Positions 4,111 to 12,083 of a stretch of 59,606 bases of DNA are shown one piece after another; positions within the stretch are counted from its first letter, which is position 1, and each line of letters starts with the position of its first letter. The notes beneath the pieces were generated by a model. It made no database searches. It was not told the origin of the DNA and saw nothing but the letters and a program-made list of their open reading frames with translations. Origin of the DNA: Candidatus Alloenteromonas pullistercoris (GTDB lineage: Bacteria; Bacillota_I; Bacilli_A; RFN20; CAG-826). Both the position numbers and the translations under genes were made by a program. The stretch is taken from the NCBI GenBank assembly GCA_017694295.1, contig JADINA010000032.1, positions 1-59,606 on the forward strand, given 5' to 3'.

Positions 4111-4440
4111 TTCCGACCTGGGCGACTGCTGCCGAAAGGTAGAGGAAAGTCCATGCTCGCACCGCCTGCGATGGCGGTAGTGATTGCGCTGGGGGAAGCG
4201 ATAACCCCAGGTGCGCGGGAGCGCGCAACGGCGGGCCAATCCCTGTTTCAGGAGGCGGCCCCTAAGGTGCCACAGAGACGAGCTTGGCGGCGACGTCAAG
4301 ATGAAACGCGGCAAACCCCACAAGCGAGAAACCCAAATTTGGTAGGGGAAGCGCCCAATGCGAATTGAAGCGGCGGGGGCCGGCGAAAGCCGAGATAAAT
4401 TGTCGTCCTCGACATAACATGGCTTATAGGGTCGGACACT
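4111..4440 (+). ncRNA. rnpB: RNase P RNA, type B
   Basis: P1 is formed by CCGACC (4113-4118) and GGTCGG (4430-4435). The universal P4 strand GAGGAAAGTCCATGCTCGCA follows the 5' end. The type B landmarks AAGGTGCCACAGAGACGA, AACGCGGCAAACCCC, GCGAGAAACCCAAATTTGG and the 3' ACATGGCTTATAGGG are all present in order. The RNA is the catalytic subunit that trims tRNA 5' ends. Type B is restricted to Bacilli and Mollicutes-related bacteria, which is strong evidence for the lineage. The exact ends are inferred from P1. Confidence 0.95.
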
Positions 4441-6780: not shown

Positions 6781-7087
6781 TACCATGGTTTTGCGGAAGG
6801 TTTTGCAAGGCGAATTCAATAAGTAGAAGAGGGAATTGCGCAAAAACCTACTATTTCGTTTTTACTACTTGGCAATTGCGGGGTTTCCCTCGACATGTTT
6901 TCTTCCTCGCCACCTGGAATAATTCGTAAAAAAGTATCGTTTTTGTGGGTTTAGGTTGCTAGAATATGCTCGTACCTCGAAGTACGCCCTTACAGTTTGG
7001 AAGCCTTCGGGCTTAGATAAAATCTAATTCATACGGTTTCTACCTCAATGGGCAAGTGTGCTTTGGGGTTTTAAGGAGCGTTATCGA
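6781..7087 (+). promoter_or_regulatory. Long structured recA-rny intergenic region with rny promoter
   Basis: No gene is seen here. An extended -10 (TGC then TAGAAT at 6960-6965) gives a leader of about 120 nt for rny. Within the leader, CGTAC/GTACG (6971-6986) and a UUCG-capped stem (7001-7014) can form. Upstream of the promoter, GAGGGAA (6829-6835) is complementary to TTCCCTC (6885-6891), enclosing AAAAAC/GTTTTT (6842-6863). The function of the upstream structure is unknown. Confidence 0.5.
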
Positions 7088-8668
7088 ATGTTGACACCAT
7101 TTCTTCTTAGCGAGGGCGTTTGGATTGCCCTCGTAGTCGTCATCCCGGTCGTGGTCGGCCTAGTGGCCGCCGGGCTGACCTTATTTTTGACTAGCCACAA
7201 AAGCAAAGTCGCCGGCAAAAACGCCGAGACGGTTTTGAAGGAGGCGAAGATCAAGGCCGAGCATCTTATCAAAAACGCCGAGATCGACGCCAAGCAAGCC
7301 GCCTTCGAGGCCAAGCAGAAGGCCGATGGCGAGATAAGCGCCCGCAAAGGCGAACTCGCCTCTTTGGAGCAGAAGCTCAGCCTTCGCGAGCAGGCCATCG
7401 ATCAACGGGATTCGGCTTTGATCCAAAAGGAGAACAACCTCGAGAAGAAAAACGAGATGCTTGACCGCTCCATCGAATCCTATAAGGCCAGGCAAGCCGA
7501 GCTGGACTCGAAGATCGACGACATCATCAAGGAGCTTGAGAAAGTCGCCGGCATGTCGACCCAGGAAGCCCACGACGAGATCATGGCCAGGGTCGAATCG
7601 AAGATGGCCATGGAAATCGCCGCCTATATGAAAAACGCCGAGGACGAGGCCAAGGAAACCGCGGCCCAGAAAGCCATCGACCTATTGGCCCTCGCCTGCC
7701 AAAAATACGCCCAGGACGTCACCAGCGAGCGCACCGTCTCGGTCGTCTCCATCCCAAGCGATGAGATGAAAGGGAGGATCATCGGGCGCGAGGGGCGCAA
7801 TATCCGCGTCTTGGAGCAGGAGCTTGGCGTCGACATCGTAATCGACGACACCCCGGAGACCATCACCGTCTCCTGCTTTGACCCCATCAGGCGGGAAATC
7901 GCCAGGCGGACGATCGAGTATTTGGTCAAAGACGGTCGCATCCAGCCTAGCCGGATCGAGGAGGTCTCGGCGAAATGCAAGAGGGAAGTGGCCGAGACCG
8001 TTCAAAAATACGGCGAGGAAGCCTGCTTCAAACTTGGCCTCCCCCGCATCAACAAGGAGCTCGTCGCCTACGTCGGCCGTCTCCATTACCGCACCTCCTA
8101 TGGGCAAAACGCCCTTGAGCATTCGATGGAGGTCGCCTATCTAACCGGGCTTATGGCCGGGGAGCTCGGCCTTGACGTCAATCTCGCCCGCCGCGCCGGA
8201 TTGCTACACGACATCGGGAAATCCGTCGACTTCGAGCTTGAGGGGAGCCATGTTGAGCTTGGGGCCCAGCTTGCTAAAAAATATGGCGAATCCGACGTCG
8301 TCATCAACTCAATCGAAAGCCACCATGGCGACGTTGAGGCCCGTTACGTCATCTCCCACCTCGTGGCGGCCGCCGACACCCTCTCGGCCGCTAGGCCCGG
8401 GGCAAGGAGCGAGACCCTTGAAACCTACGTCAAGCGCGTTGAGCAGCTTGAGGGGCTCGCCAAATCCTTCGATGGCGTCCAACAGGCCTACGCCATGCAA
8501 TCGGGCCGCGAGATCCGGGTCATGGTCATGCCGGAGAAGATCTCCGACGCCGAATCGGTTTTGCTCGCCCAGCAGCTTCGCGACAAGATCGAGCAGGAAA
8601 TGACCTATCCCGGTCAGATAAAGGTTTCGGTCATCCGCGAATACCGGGCCATCGAGACCGCCAAATAA
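7088..8668 (+). CDS. rny: Ribonuclease Y
   Basis: The 526-residue membrane-anchored endoribonuclease starts mRNA decay in Bacilli. It has one N-terminal membrane helix (about 10-33), a long charged coiled coil (about 40-190), a KH domain with GRIIGREGRNIRVLEQELG, and an HD domain with LLHDIGKSVDFE and SHVELG. The ATG at 7088 is preceded by AAGGAG with good spacing. It heads an operon in which ymdB starts 1 nt after its stop, followed by miaB carrying a RicA-like domain. In Bacillus the Ric complex modulates RNase Y, which makes this clustering meaningful. Confidence 0.97.
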   Translation: MLTPFLLSEGVWIALVVVIPVVVGLVAAGLTLFLTSHKSKVAGKNAETVLKEAKIKAEHLIKNAEIDAKQAAFEAKQKADGEISARKGELASLEQKLSLREQAIDQRDSALIQKENNLEKKNEMLDRSIESYKARQAELDSKIDDIIKELEKVAGMSTQEAHDEIMARVESKMAMEIAAYMKNAEDEAKETAAQKAIDLLALACQKYAQDVTSERTVSVVSIPSDEMKGRIIGREGRNIRVLEQELGVDIVIDDTPETITVSCFDPIRREIARRTIEYLVKDGRIQPSRIEEVSAKCKREVAETVQKYGEEACFKLGLPRINKELVAYVGRLHYRTSYGQNALEHSMEVAYLTGLMAGELGLDVNLARRAGLLHDIGKSVDFELEGSHVELGAQLAKKYGESDVVINSIESHHGDVEARYVISHLVAAADTLSAARPGARSETLETYVKRVEQLEGLAKSFDGVQQAYAMQSGREIRVMVMPEKISDAESVLLAQQLRDKIEQEMTYPGQIKVSVIREYRAIETAK

Positions 8669-8669
8669 G

Positions 8670-9464
8670 ATGCGCTTCCTCTTCCTTGGCGACGTCGTCG
8701 GCCCGATTGGGCTAAGGGGTGTAGGGGAGGTTTTGCCTAAGCTGAAGGCCGCCTTGAAGCCCGACATCGCGATCGTCAACGGGGAAAACGCCGCCCGGGG
8801 AAGGGGCATAGTCCGCCAAGACTATCTTGCCTTGAAGCGCTCCGGGGCCGATTTCATCACCTTGGGCAACCACTTCCTCGACAAGAAGGCTCTCTCCTCC
8901 TTTATCGGCGAATACCCCGACTTGCTCCGCCCGCTTAACGCGAAAGGCTTCGATAAGGGGAGGGGGGTCGCCATAACCGAGGTCAATGGGCTTAAGGTCG
9001 CCATATTGACCATCACCCTTCCGGCGTTCCTCAACATGGAGCTGGAAGACCAATACGAAACGATGGAAAGGATATTGCCAAGCCTCCCCAAGCTAAGCTT
9101 TATCGACCTCCATGGCGAATCGACTTCCGAGAAGCAACTTTTCTTCCACTATTTCCGGGGGAAGGTAAGCGCGATCGTCGGAACCCACACCCACGTCCAA
9201 ACCGCCGACGCCTGCATCGAAGGCGGGACGGCCTTCATCTGTGACGCCGGGATGTGTGGGGAGAGCGATTCGATTATCGGGGTGAGCTATGAATCGGCCA
9301 TTTCAAGGGCCCGTTATGGGCAGGGGCGGTTTAGCTGCTCGGAGGAAGGAAAGTATTCAGTCTGCGGGGTTTACGTCGATTGCGACGACGCCTCTGGGCG
9401 GGCGATAGCCATCCGCCCATTTAGTATAAAAGAAGGAATGGAGGTCACCGATGCCCTCAGTTGA
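8670..9464 (+). CDS. ymdB: YmdB metallophosphoesterase (2',3'-cNMP phosphodiesterase)
   Basis: The 264-residue protein has the whole YmdB metal-site series: GDVVGPIG near the start, NGENAA, LGNHFLDK, DLHGESTSEK and GTHTHVQTADA. In Bacillus YmdB hydrolyses 2',3'-cyclic nucleotides and affects biofilm and motility fate; those nucleotides are RNA-decay products, which fits the rny-ymdB pairing. It begins 1 nt after the rny stop and overlaps miaB by 14 nt, indicating translational coupling. Confidence 0.95.
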   Translation: MRFLFLGDVVGPIGLRGVGEVLPKLKAALKPDIAIVNGENAARGRGIVRQDYLALKRSGADFITLGNHFLDKKALSSFIGEYPDLLRPLNAKGFDKGRGVAITEVNGLKVAILTITLPAFLNMELEDQYETMERILPSLPKLSFIDLHGESTSEKQLFFHYFRGKVSAIVGTHTHVQTADACIEGGTAFICDAGMCGESDSIIGVSYESAISRARYGQGRFSCSEEGKYSVCGVYVDCDDASGRAIAIRPFSIKEGMEVTDALS

Positions 9465-11202
9465 GATCATTTCCAAGCCGGATTTGGGGAAAGCCCGTAA
9501 TAGAGCCTTGGCCCCAAAAGTCAGTTATGACGATTGCCAGGTCAGCGAGCGCGTTTCCGCTTTTGCTAAAGGGCGGACCTATTTGGTCAAGACCTTTGGC
9601 TGCCAAGGCAACGTCAGGGACGAGGAGGTCATCTCCGGGTATTTGGAAAGATGCGGCTTTTCAAAAGCCAAAGACGAATCCAAAGCCAACATAGTCGTCA
9701 TCAACACCTGCGCCGTGCGCGAGAACGCCGAGGACAAGGTGTATGGGGAAATCGGCAAGTTCAAGGCCAATTACCTCGCCGATAAGGATTTTATCCTCTG
9801 CGTCTGCGGCTGCATGATGCAGGAGGAGGGCAAGGCGGAACGTCTTTTTGAAAGCTACCGCCACCTCAAGATCGTCTTTGGGACCTATAACATCCCCTCA
9901 TTGCCTTCCTTATTGGACCGTTACTTGCAAACAAGAAAGCCGATACTCGACGTCATCTCCTATCCAGGCGACATCATCGAGGGGCTTCCCTCCATCCGCC
10001 TCGACCCATACAAGGCTTATGTCAACATCTCCTATGGCTGCGATAAGTTCTGCACCTATTGCATCGTCCCTTATACCCGGGGAAGGGAGAGGTCAAGGCC
10101 TTTAAAGGAAATAGTCAAAGAATGCGAGCAGCTGGTCGAGGAAGGGTATAAGGAAATCACCCTGCTTGGTCAAAACGTCAATTCCTATGGGAAGGATTTT
10201 GGCGATGGAACCACCTTCTCCACCGTGTTGGAGGCGGTCGCGAAAACCGGGATCGCCCGGCTTCGCTTCACGACTTCCCACCCTTGGGATTTTGATTTGG
10301 AGATGCTCGACGTCATCGCCAAATACCCCAACATCATGAATTGCATCCACCTTCCCGTCCAATCCGGCAGCAGCGAGATCCTTCGCCTTATGGGGAGACG
10401 TTACGACAGGGAGTCGTATTTGAAGCTTGTGGAGGAAATTAGGAAACGCATCCCCGGATGCGCGATCACCACCGACATCATCGTCGGCTTCCCCAATGAG
10501 ACGGAAAGCCAATTCGAGGAAACCCTTTCCCTTTGCGAGAAAGTGAAATACGACGCCGCCTTCACCTTCATCTACTCCCCAAGGGCCGGCACCCCAGCCG
10601 CTAGGATGGAGGACAACGTCAGCGATAAGGTGAAGCACGAAAGGTTCAATCGCCTGCTCAAGGTCATAGAAGACGGCGTCTGCTACCATTCCTCGCAGAT
10701 GGTCGGGAAGGTCTACGACGTCTTGGTCGACGGGCAAAGCAAAAAGGACGAGGCCTTCCTTTCCGGCTACGCCGAAAACGGCAAGCTCATCCATTTCCAA
10801 GGCCCTTCTTATCTGCGCGGGCTCATCGTCCCGGTTAAAGTGAGTGAGGACCACGCCTTCTCGATGAAAGGCGTCTTGGAGGGCGACCCATTTGATATTA
10901 CCCTTGCCCAGGCGAAGCGCTCGCTTGAAAGCGAGTCCGAATACGCCGAGTTTTTAAAAGCAAAGGCCGAGCTTGACGCCGACCAATCGTTCTCCGGCCT
11001 TTATTCGCTTTTCAAAAGCAAGCGGGAACAGCTGCAAAAAGCCGCTAAAAACGGCGAGCAAAATGCGAAAATCCAAGAAATAAAAGGGGAATTGCGGGAA
11101 TACGCCGATAAATTGAAGAACCATCCGCTTTACGTGAATTTCCTTTCCCGCAAGGCCGATGTCGAGGCGTTATTGGAGGAAGCCTTCGCTTTGATCAAAT
11201 GA
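9451..11202 (+). CDS. miaB: MiaB tRNA methylthiotransferase fused to a YmcA/RicA (Com_YlbF) domain
   Basis: Residues 1-480 are MiaB, which converts i6A37 to ms2i6A37 in tRNA. The auxiliary-cluster cysteines are C51 (GCQGNVRDEE), C87 (NTCAVRENAEDKVYG) and C121 (GCMMQEEGK); the radical-SAM cysteines are C197/C201/C204 (CDKFCTYC); a TRAM domain ends near 478. Residues about 481-583 (from nt 10891) are extra. They form a helical region with TLAQAKRSL, a FLKAKAEL helix, KREQLQKAAKNG and KLKNHPLYVNFLSRKADVEA, which follows the spacing of the YlbF/YmcA family: two long helices, then a xVxxFxxxxxxVxxLL end. In Bacillus ymcA (ricA) is the separate gene directly after miaB; here the two are one open frame. 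The stop overlaps the miaA start. Confidence 0.9.
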   Translation: MPSVEIISKPDLGKARNRALAPKVSYDDCQVSERVSAFAKGRTYLVKTFGCQGNVRDEEVISGYLERCGFSKAKDESKANIVVINTCAVRENAEDKVYGEIGKFKANYLADKDFILCVCGCMMQEEGKAERLFESYRHLKIVFGTYNIPSLPSLLDRYLQTRKPILDVISYPGDIIEGLPSIRLDPYKAYVNISYGCDKFCTYCIVPYTRGRERSRPLKEIVKECEQLVEEGYKEITLLGQNVNSYGKDFGDGTTFSTVLEAVAKTGIARLRFTTSHPWDFDLEMLDVIAKYPNIMNCIHLPVQSGSSEILRLMGRRYDRESYLKLVEEIRKRIPGCAITTDIIVGFPNETESQFEETLSLCEKVKYDAAFTFIYSPRAGTPAARMEDNVSDKVKHERFNRLLKVIEDGVCYHSSQMVGKVYDVLVDGQSKKDEAFLSGYAENGKLIHFQGPSYLRGLIVPVKVSEDHAFSMKGVLEGDPFDITLAQAKRSLESESEYAEFLKAKAELDADQSFSGLYSLFKSKREQLQKAAKNGEQNAKIQEIKGELREYADKLKNHPLYVNFLSRKADVEALLEEAFALIK

Positions 11203-12083
11203 TCATCGTTTTGACCGGGGTAACGGGGTCTGGGAAAAGCGAACTGGCCATAAGCTTGGCCAAGAAGCTAAACGCCGGCATCGTCAACGCCGACGCCTTC
11301 CAGGTATATGAGGAGCTTAACATCGCCACCGCCAAGCCAACTGAGGCGATGATGATGGAAGCCCCCCATTTCCTATTTGACTTCATCCCGGTTACCTCTT
11401 CCTATTCGGTCGCCGAATACCAGCAAGACCTTCGTAGCGCCATCGCGACTTTGGAGCAAGCTGGGAAAAACGTCATCATAGCCGGCGGGACCGGTCTTTA
11501 CATTAGGGCGGGCATTTACGATTACCGCTTCCCCGAGGAGCGCGAGGTCGACATGGCCCCATTCGAAGGGCTTGGTGACGATGAACTTTATCGGCAAGCC
11601 AGCCTATTAGACGAGGCGGAGGCCAAAACCATCCATCCCCATAACCGGGTCCGGCTGTTGCGGCTTATCAAAATGGCTTTGATGGGATATAGGAAAAGCG
11701 AGGTTAAGCAAAACCAGGCGCACCGCCCCCTTTATGATTGCCTTTTCCTCGGACTTGAGGTTGAGCGTTCCGACATCTACTCCCGGGTCGAAAGAAGGGT
11801 TGAGCGGATGTTCGAATCGGGACTGGTGGAGGAAAACCGCCGATTGGTTGAAAAACACGGGCGGGATTGCCCGGCCTTTCGGGCCATTGGCGTCAAGGAG
11901 CTCTTCCCATATTTCGATGGGCTCATCAGCTTGGAGCAGGCCAAGGAGGAAATCAAAAAGAACACCCGCCACTACGTCAAGCGGCAGGAAACGTTTTTCC
12001 GCCACCAATTCGACATAACCTACGTCAAAGGCGAAGAGGACGTGCTTAAGCTTATCAAGGAGCGTGACGATGGGGCGCTTTGA
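11199..12083 (+). CDS. miaA: tRNA dimethylallyltransferase
   Basis: The 294-residue enzyme isopentenylates A37 in tRNAs reading UNN codons, making the substrate of MiaB. The P-loop GVTGSGKS is at about 6-13, followed by NADAFQVYEELNIATAKPT (the D and Q recognition region), GGTGLYI, and RAIGVKELFPYF near the C-terminus. Length is normal for the family. ATGA overlap with miaB and overlap with the next gene indicate an operon of A37 modification functions. Confidence 0.96.
   Translation: MIIVLTGVTGSGKSELAISLAKKLNAGIVNADAFQVYEELNIATAKPTEAMMMEAPHFLFDFIPVTSSYSVAEYQQDLRSAIATLEQAGKNVIIAGGTGLYIRAGIYDYRFPEEREVDMAPFEGLGDDELYRQASLLDEAEAKTIHPHNRVRLLRLIKMALMGYRKSEVKQNQAHRPLYDCLFLGLEVERSDIYSRVERRVERMFESGLVEENRRLVEKHGRDCPAFRAIGVKELFPYFDGLISLEQAKEEIKKNTRHYVKRQETFFRHQFDITYVKGEEDVLKLIKERDDGAL

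Follow-up and report, generated by a model that had tools for sequence, protein, structure and literature searches.

A gene joining miaB and ricA in the RNase Y operon of Candidatus Alloenteromonas and its relatives

MiaB converts the i6A37 of tRNA to ms2i6A37 with the use of two [4Fe-4S] clusters and SAM, and the i6A is supplied by MiaA, the tRNA i6A37 prenyltransferase. We are not aware that the neighborhood of miaB and ricA in Bacillota has ever been explained. The question is raised anew by a 59,606-nucleotide stretch of DNA, here called the window, from Candidatus Alloenteromonas pullistercoris, which belongs to a group of uncultured bacteria of the gut, and in which a single open reading frame holds both genes: what are the two parts of the encoded protein, how often has the joined gene arisen, and does the tether serve a purpose?

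The two halves of the encoded protein

The operon of the window runs in the order pgsA, cinA, recA, rny, ymdB, miaB-ricA, miaA, a ThiF-like gene and fhs, where cinA, rny, ymdB, miaB and miaA were assigned by Pfam and pgsA, recA, the ThiF-like gene and fhs were identified from their translations. The fusion is directly preceded by ymdB and that in turn by rny (Table 1), in agreement with a preliminary description of this DNA that had placed rny two genes upstream. Five of the six relatives that were laid out (L283, L189, L209, L210 and L213) share this order with ricA either fused or separate; pgsA and cinA are joined in L213, and in the sixth relative, L211, miaA is absent directly after the fusion. 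A class B RNase P RNA gene is located at 4114-4431, directly upstream of the pgsA-cinA-recA-rny run.

Table 1. Features of the miaB-ricA gene and its closest neighbors in the window.
Feature	Position	Strand	Basis
rny, RNase Y (RNase_Y_N, KH, HD)	7058..8668	+	Pfam
ymdB-like phosphoesterase gene, 14-nt overlap with miaB start	8670..9464	+	Pfam YmdB 5.5e-75
miaB-ricA fusion gene, 583 aa	9451..11202	+	single open reading frame
UPF0004 domain, residues 44-144; Cys 51, 87, 121	9580..9882	+	Pfam
Radical_SAM domain, residues 191-361; Cys 197, 201, 204	10021..10533	+	Pfam
TRAM domain, residues 416-475	10696..10875	+	Pfam
RicA/YmcA-like tail, residues 476-583; Com_YlbF match 491-578	10876..11199	+	Pfam, tail profile
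miaA, ATGA overlap with miaB-ricA	11199..12083	+	Pfam IPPT 9.9e-67

The MiaB half is complete, with all six Fe-S cysteines, and the protein scores 490.5 bits against the NCBIfam MiaB equivalog model TIGR01574, which has a cut-off of 355.3. Cys51, Cys87 and Cys121, together with Cys197, Cys201 and Cys204 of the radical-SAM CxxxCxxC motif, are invariant in all 29 aligned fused proteins, and we take these six residues to be the ligands of the Fe-S clusters.

The part that follows the TRAM domain had been described as residues 481-583 with a domain of the Com_YlbF (PF06133) type; the extra residues do exist, although the boundary has to be moved so that the post-TRAM part begins at residue 476. 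The domain itself is found in the same frame as MiaB with an E-value of 5.3e-9 (36.9 bits) when the whole protein is searched and of 1.8e-10 (41.7 bits) for the tail alone, in both cases above the Pfam gathering score of 23.9. A profile built from 28 fused tails and run against solved structures matches RicA (6prh, E 6.8e-11) and YmcA (2pih, E 1.2e-10) far better than RicF (6prk_A, E 1.7e-5) or YheA (E 0.033), which upholds the earlier assignment of the tail as RicA-like. RicF as the identity of the tail is ruled out both by these scores and by the gene neighbors, and the tail occupies the syntenic place of ricA directly after the miaB part. The single tail from the window gave nothing significant against the solved structures, with RicA at E 0.97, and it is just 16-32% identical to the tails of other members of the genus.

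The low dN/dS of the tail, 0.02-0.20 in close fused pairs with computable ratios and MiaB identity above 0.84, shows purifying selection on the RicA part, and the same holds for the MiaB part, for which the ratio is 0.00-0.06 in those pairs. Separate ricA genes give 0.04-0.47; the pairs are not independent of each other, and those with saturated dS gave no ratio. A relaxation of selection after the fusion is not clearly seen when tails and separate ricA genes are compared at matched MiaB identity. In the seven nearer bins the fused tails are equally or more alike than the separate ricA genes, and only in the two most distant bins are they slightly less alike (0.27 versus 0.30 and 0.28 versus 0.31).

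Distribution and origins of the fusion

The relatives that were compared are mostly metagenome-assembled genomes where their titles are known, and the nearest named one is Candidatus Alloenteromonas pullicola with 67% identity. MiaB was located in 136 loci, with ricA fused in 62 and unfused in 74, a ratio that is not a frequency since some of the loci were chosen for their long open frames. In 72 of the 74 unfused loci a custom HMM finds a separate RicA adjoining miaB (best E 0.0024 or lower), and with the same HMM no RicA was found in the remaining two, L268 and L275. The same fusion was expected in related genomes, and it is indeed present in 29 of the 30 MiaB proteins of the genus near Candidatus Alloenteromonas that includes the window genome (g1), and in all 30 loci examined from the sister genus (g45), which comprises 37 genomes, at least 35 of them with a MiaB match. 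The exception in g1 is G007, and in another g1 genome, the 59% complete G018, no MiaB match was found among the matches listed. Lone fusions among unfused sisters occur in G168 (g35) and in G141 and G164 (g33). A set of 80 named loci, judged by the length of their open frames, comprises 28 fused and 52 unfused ones, where the 28 correspond to the L093-L121 group of 29 minus L106, which matches G007. Among the class matches listed, four with long frames, G318, G413, G390 and G346, all have miaB and ricA separate. In a draw from the phylum 48 genomes gave a MiaB match, and on the basis of open frame and matched range alone two of them are fused, the window genome and one other g1 member. Outside the family no fusion was found among the class matches listed or in these 48 genomes.

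Given that unfused relatives have the two genes in adjacent frames, a single lost base in an assembly would mimic the fusion, and each of the three tip fusions is known from one genome only. Nevertheless, an assembly or sequencing error that joins two frames is scarcely conceivable as the source of the window gene: besides that gene itself, 28 of the 29 other g1 members with MiaB carry the fusion, 59 of the 60 members of g1 and g45 have it in separate genomes, and the motif at the junction is conserved across the fused proteins. The preliminary observation that the extra residues continue in the frame of MiaB thus holds. In G007 (L021, around 2900-2950) miaB ends with a stop and ricA restarts a few bases on in a different frame, which reflects either a true separation of the genes or an indel in the assembly. 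In G318 (L214), which falls outside the order, a single TAA is all that separates miaB from an in-frame ricA, whose ATG comes immediately after this stop.

The layout of the separate genes suggests how they could have been joined. Out of 72 separate pairs 70 overlap, and 68 have ricA in the +1 frame relative to miaB. The overlap measured from the ATG of ricA is exactly 8 nt in 51 pairs, and in 50 an SD-like motif is found upstream of ricA, inside miaB. A net loss of one base within the overlap would accordingly bring both genes into one frame. Of the 62 fused genes, 44 have lost any in-frame start with a preceding SD motif around the junction, therefore free RicA is probably not made from these. 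In the other 18, the window gene included, an SD-like motif is accompanied by an in-frame start located between -15 and +45 nt relative to the junction, either retained or by chance, and it is possible that some free RicA is produced from them.

In a tree of the MiaB part with 136 rows the fused state requires at least five changes, compared with a mean of about 45 when the labels are shuffled. Five changes are also obtained in a bootstrap tree of 58 rows, in which the fused clade of g1 and g45 has a support of 100/100 and a single clade for all fused rows is rejected (p-AU 6.75e-7). We interpret the five changes as an old fusion, three more at the tips, hence four in total, and one split or assembly error in G007; the change counts alone do not separate gain from loss. 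The old fused clade has remained fused in 59 of its 60 members over long branches.

Other junctions of the operon served as a control, for which loci with both genes close together were scored for one open frame holding both. The pgsA-cinA junction is fused in one locus out of 30 (G167, genus g35), the joined frame of 369 aa being located at L213:207-1316. No fusions were found at cinA-recA or recA-rny (0/31 each), rny-ymdB (0/115) or thiF-fhs (0/18), nor at ymdB-miaB (0/119), ricA-miaA (0/112) and miaA-thiF (0/68), although 83, 82 and 66 of these loci, respectively, have overlapping genes. Counting two of these junctions under slightly different rules gave 0/121 and 0/114. The control is imperfect in that the frame offsets are not matched between the junctions and the overlaps hinge on the most upstream start codon. 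Within these bounds, fusion at other junctions of the operon occurs but is rare, while miaB and ricA have been fused at least four times.

Ric partners and cluster cysteines

Two Com_YlbF matches are found in the assembly that contains the window, the tail of the fusion and a 109-residue protein, and the latter is identified as RicF by its gene neighbors, which from their translations are rsmD and coaD. A ricT gene with a PSP1 domain is flanked by what we interpret as holB and rsmI. Hence the separate ricF and ricT genes that had been looked for are both there, and RicF (by the Com_YlbF match and its neighbors), RicT and RNase Y are all encoded in this genome. No second RicA was found in the assembly, which is in line with the proposal that the fused domain is the only one, although at 86.7% completeness a further copy could exist. 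The RicT protein of the window genome (L280:7905-9053) ends in a C-terminal extension of some 90 residues in which G, K, Q, N, R and H are abundant. The PSP1 open frames are 358-464 aa long in g1, against mostly 272-315 aa in members of the order from different families (with exceptions of 214, 354 and 403), and the extension is possibly an added RNA-binding arm.

In Bacillus, according to the available part of one report (PMC6751060), cluster 2 is assigned to Cys167 of RicT, Cys134 and Cys146 of RicF and a C-terminal cysteine of RicA. The same portion of that report assigns this role in B. subtilis to Cys141 in the C-terminal tail of RicA, and the 23-25-residue C-terminal tails of RicA and RicF are described there as necessary for the binding of RicT in Geobacillus stearothermophilus (PMC6751060). 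In YmcA, whose chain has 151 residues, the match to the profile of fused tails stops at residue 109, before the C-terminal tail with the cluster 2 cysteine (Cys141), and no cysteine is found in the RicA domain of the window. A suggestion that the fusion might sense iron or redox state therefore finds no support as far as RicA is concerned. Cysteines are lacking in 47 of the 62 fused tails and likewise in 45 of the 72 separate RicAs; the separate proteins are 77-125 aa long, 70 of them no longer than 115 aa. As the separate RicAs are equally short, the loss of the RicA C-terminal tail seems to be older than the fusion.

RicT has kept its cysteines. The motif CX4CCX30CX4CC, described for Firmicutes in the accessible text of PMC6751060, is present in 72 of 72 sequences (that of the window genome and sets of 30/30 and 41/41), all from the same order and matched by a pattern that allowed a middle spacer of 20-40 or 20-45; in the RicT of L087 this spacer exceeds 30 by one residue. 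Of 42 genomes 39 have a PSP1 match, among them 31 of the 33 fused ones, and a separate count found it in 23 of 25 g1 genomes. The RicF of the window genome has a single cysteine near its end, and a cysteine within the last 15 residues is found in 20 of 22 g1 sequences and in none of five from g45 (the set being L325-L344, L281, L282, L002, L042, L048, L049 and L056); L052, a g1 locus, gave no RicF match. The C-terminal RicF cysteine of g1 is perhaps a genus-specific trace of the cluster 2 ligands, and it is possible that cluster 1 remains on RicT. In seven genomes of g40 and g41 (G199-G205) no Com_YlbF match at E 0.01 is among the matches listed, and PSP1 is present in six of them; RicA and RicF have possibly been lost there or have strongly diverged while RicT stays.

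Function of the fusion and comparison with known systems

We consider it probable that the protein is a bifunctional MiaB-RicA, the RicA half of which still serves the specificity complex of RNase Y. The front 475 residues would constitute an intact MiaB that, judging from family knowledge, makes ms2i6A37 from the product of MiaA, and the last approximately 105 residues would be the RicA of the cell. By analogy to B. subtilis, this domain is expected to pair with RicF and to help pass RicT to RNase Y, which would thereby make selected cuts, with RicA coming attached to MiaB. The gene presumably arose when miaB and ricA, overlapping slightly and read in adjacent frames, came into one frame, and the tether would fix the two activities at a ratio of 1:1 and in the same place. 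Both activities, the binding of RicA to its partners RicF and RicT and its influence on RNase Y are what we infer from B. subtilis and from the general properties of these families. What speaks against this reading is that neither RicA nor RicF has the tail needed for RicT binding in G. stearothermophilus; either the complex is held by other contacts, or the binding of RicT by RicA may not be that of Bacillus.

Whether the tether itself does anything is a separate matter, and we give about even odds to the idea that overlapping, co-translated neighbors simply ran together by a small indel, so that the halves work independently and the link between them is functionless; on this view reversal would be rare since a new start site is needed. 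The fusion may be a mere consequence of the overlap of operon genes in adjacent frames, as is suggested by the prevalent +1 frame (68/72) and overlap (70/72) of the separate pairs with the 8-nt ATG overlap in 51 and the SD-like motif in 50, by the three recent tip fusions and one split, in which the state changed without collapse of either half, and by the single pgsA-cinA fusion in the same operon (G167, 1/30). It sits less well with the absence of fusions at the overlapping ymdB-miaB (0/119), ricA-miaA (0/112) and miaA-thiF (0/68) junctions when miaB-ricA has four origins or more, and with the persistence of the old fusion. Those origins and the long retention would fit a coupling in which the specificity complex of RNase Y is brought to tRNA or ribosomes by a MiaB that is bound to tRNA or close to ribosomes, or in which the specificity of RNase Y follows the SAM and Fe-S supply of MiaB. 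The B. subtilis Y-complex directs RNase Y to rRNA, and YmcA and YlbF have been proposed by the authors as substrate recognizers, as stated in the part of that report available (PMC13230545). Unfused relatives, however, manage without the tether, and in G007 it is dispensable unless the split there is an assembly error; we regard such a coupling as rather unlikely. In all, repeated origin and long retention may argue for some benefit, and the adjacent-frame overlap, G007 and pgsA-cinA for neutrality.

Two further possibilities are improbable to a similar degree. The RicA domain could have been co-opted by MiaB, for example in dimerization or for gripping tRNA, and no longer serve the Y-complex; the missing C-terminal tail with its cysteine and the low identity of the window tail to others of the genus are consistent with this, but RicF and the RicT cysteine motif are kept in the fused genomes examined, and the unfused RicAs are equally short, the loss of the tail having preceded the fusion, and have a roughly comparable rate of divergence. 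A bolder version of the coupling idea, for which we likewise see little chance, is that the loading of MiaB with Fe-S clusters, SAM or tRNA governs a RicA arm that passes RicT to RNase Y, so that ms2 modification of tRNA and iron supply set the specificity of RNA decay, and that the MiaB clusters replace the lost RicA part of cluster 2. The occurrence of at least four origins and the persistence across two genera constitute comparative evidence of the Rosetta-stone type that MiaB and RicA may act together. With the fusion, it becomes testable whether the modification of tRNA and the decay of RNA are physically linked, even if it may simply represent neighbors run together, and the retention of the RicT cysteines where RicA and RicF have lost their presumed cluster 2 tails bears on the purpose of the clusters.

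No report of a MiaB-RicA fusion was found in the literature searched, which included few subscription papers, and the portion available of a 2009 genome paper on ymcA and miaB has nothing about a link between both. The two halves and their adjacency are known; what appears to be new within that literature is that they are fused, that this happened repeatedly and how widely the fusion has spread. Compared to the known MiaB proteins of TIGR01574, the window protein has the same domains and all six Fe-S cysteines and differs in its additional C-terminal RicA domain. In B. subtilis, where miaB and ricA (ymcA) represent the same two families in the same order, the genes being adjacent according to the accessible text of PMC6751060, MiaB and RicA are two proteins and RicA has a tail with Cys141, whereas in the window they form one protein without that tail. 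A stable complex of RicT with RNase Y requires RicA and RicF, and a hand-off has been proposed, as far as the available part of PMC10470536 describes. The components of the RicA-RicF-RicT complex, or Y-complex, as given in the parts available of PMC10470536 and PMC13230545 have counterparts in the window genome, which encodes a RicA-like domain, a RicF-like protein, a six-cysteine RicT and RNase Y; its RicA, however, is tethered to MiaB and has no cysteine, and its RicF has one near the end.
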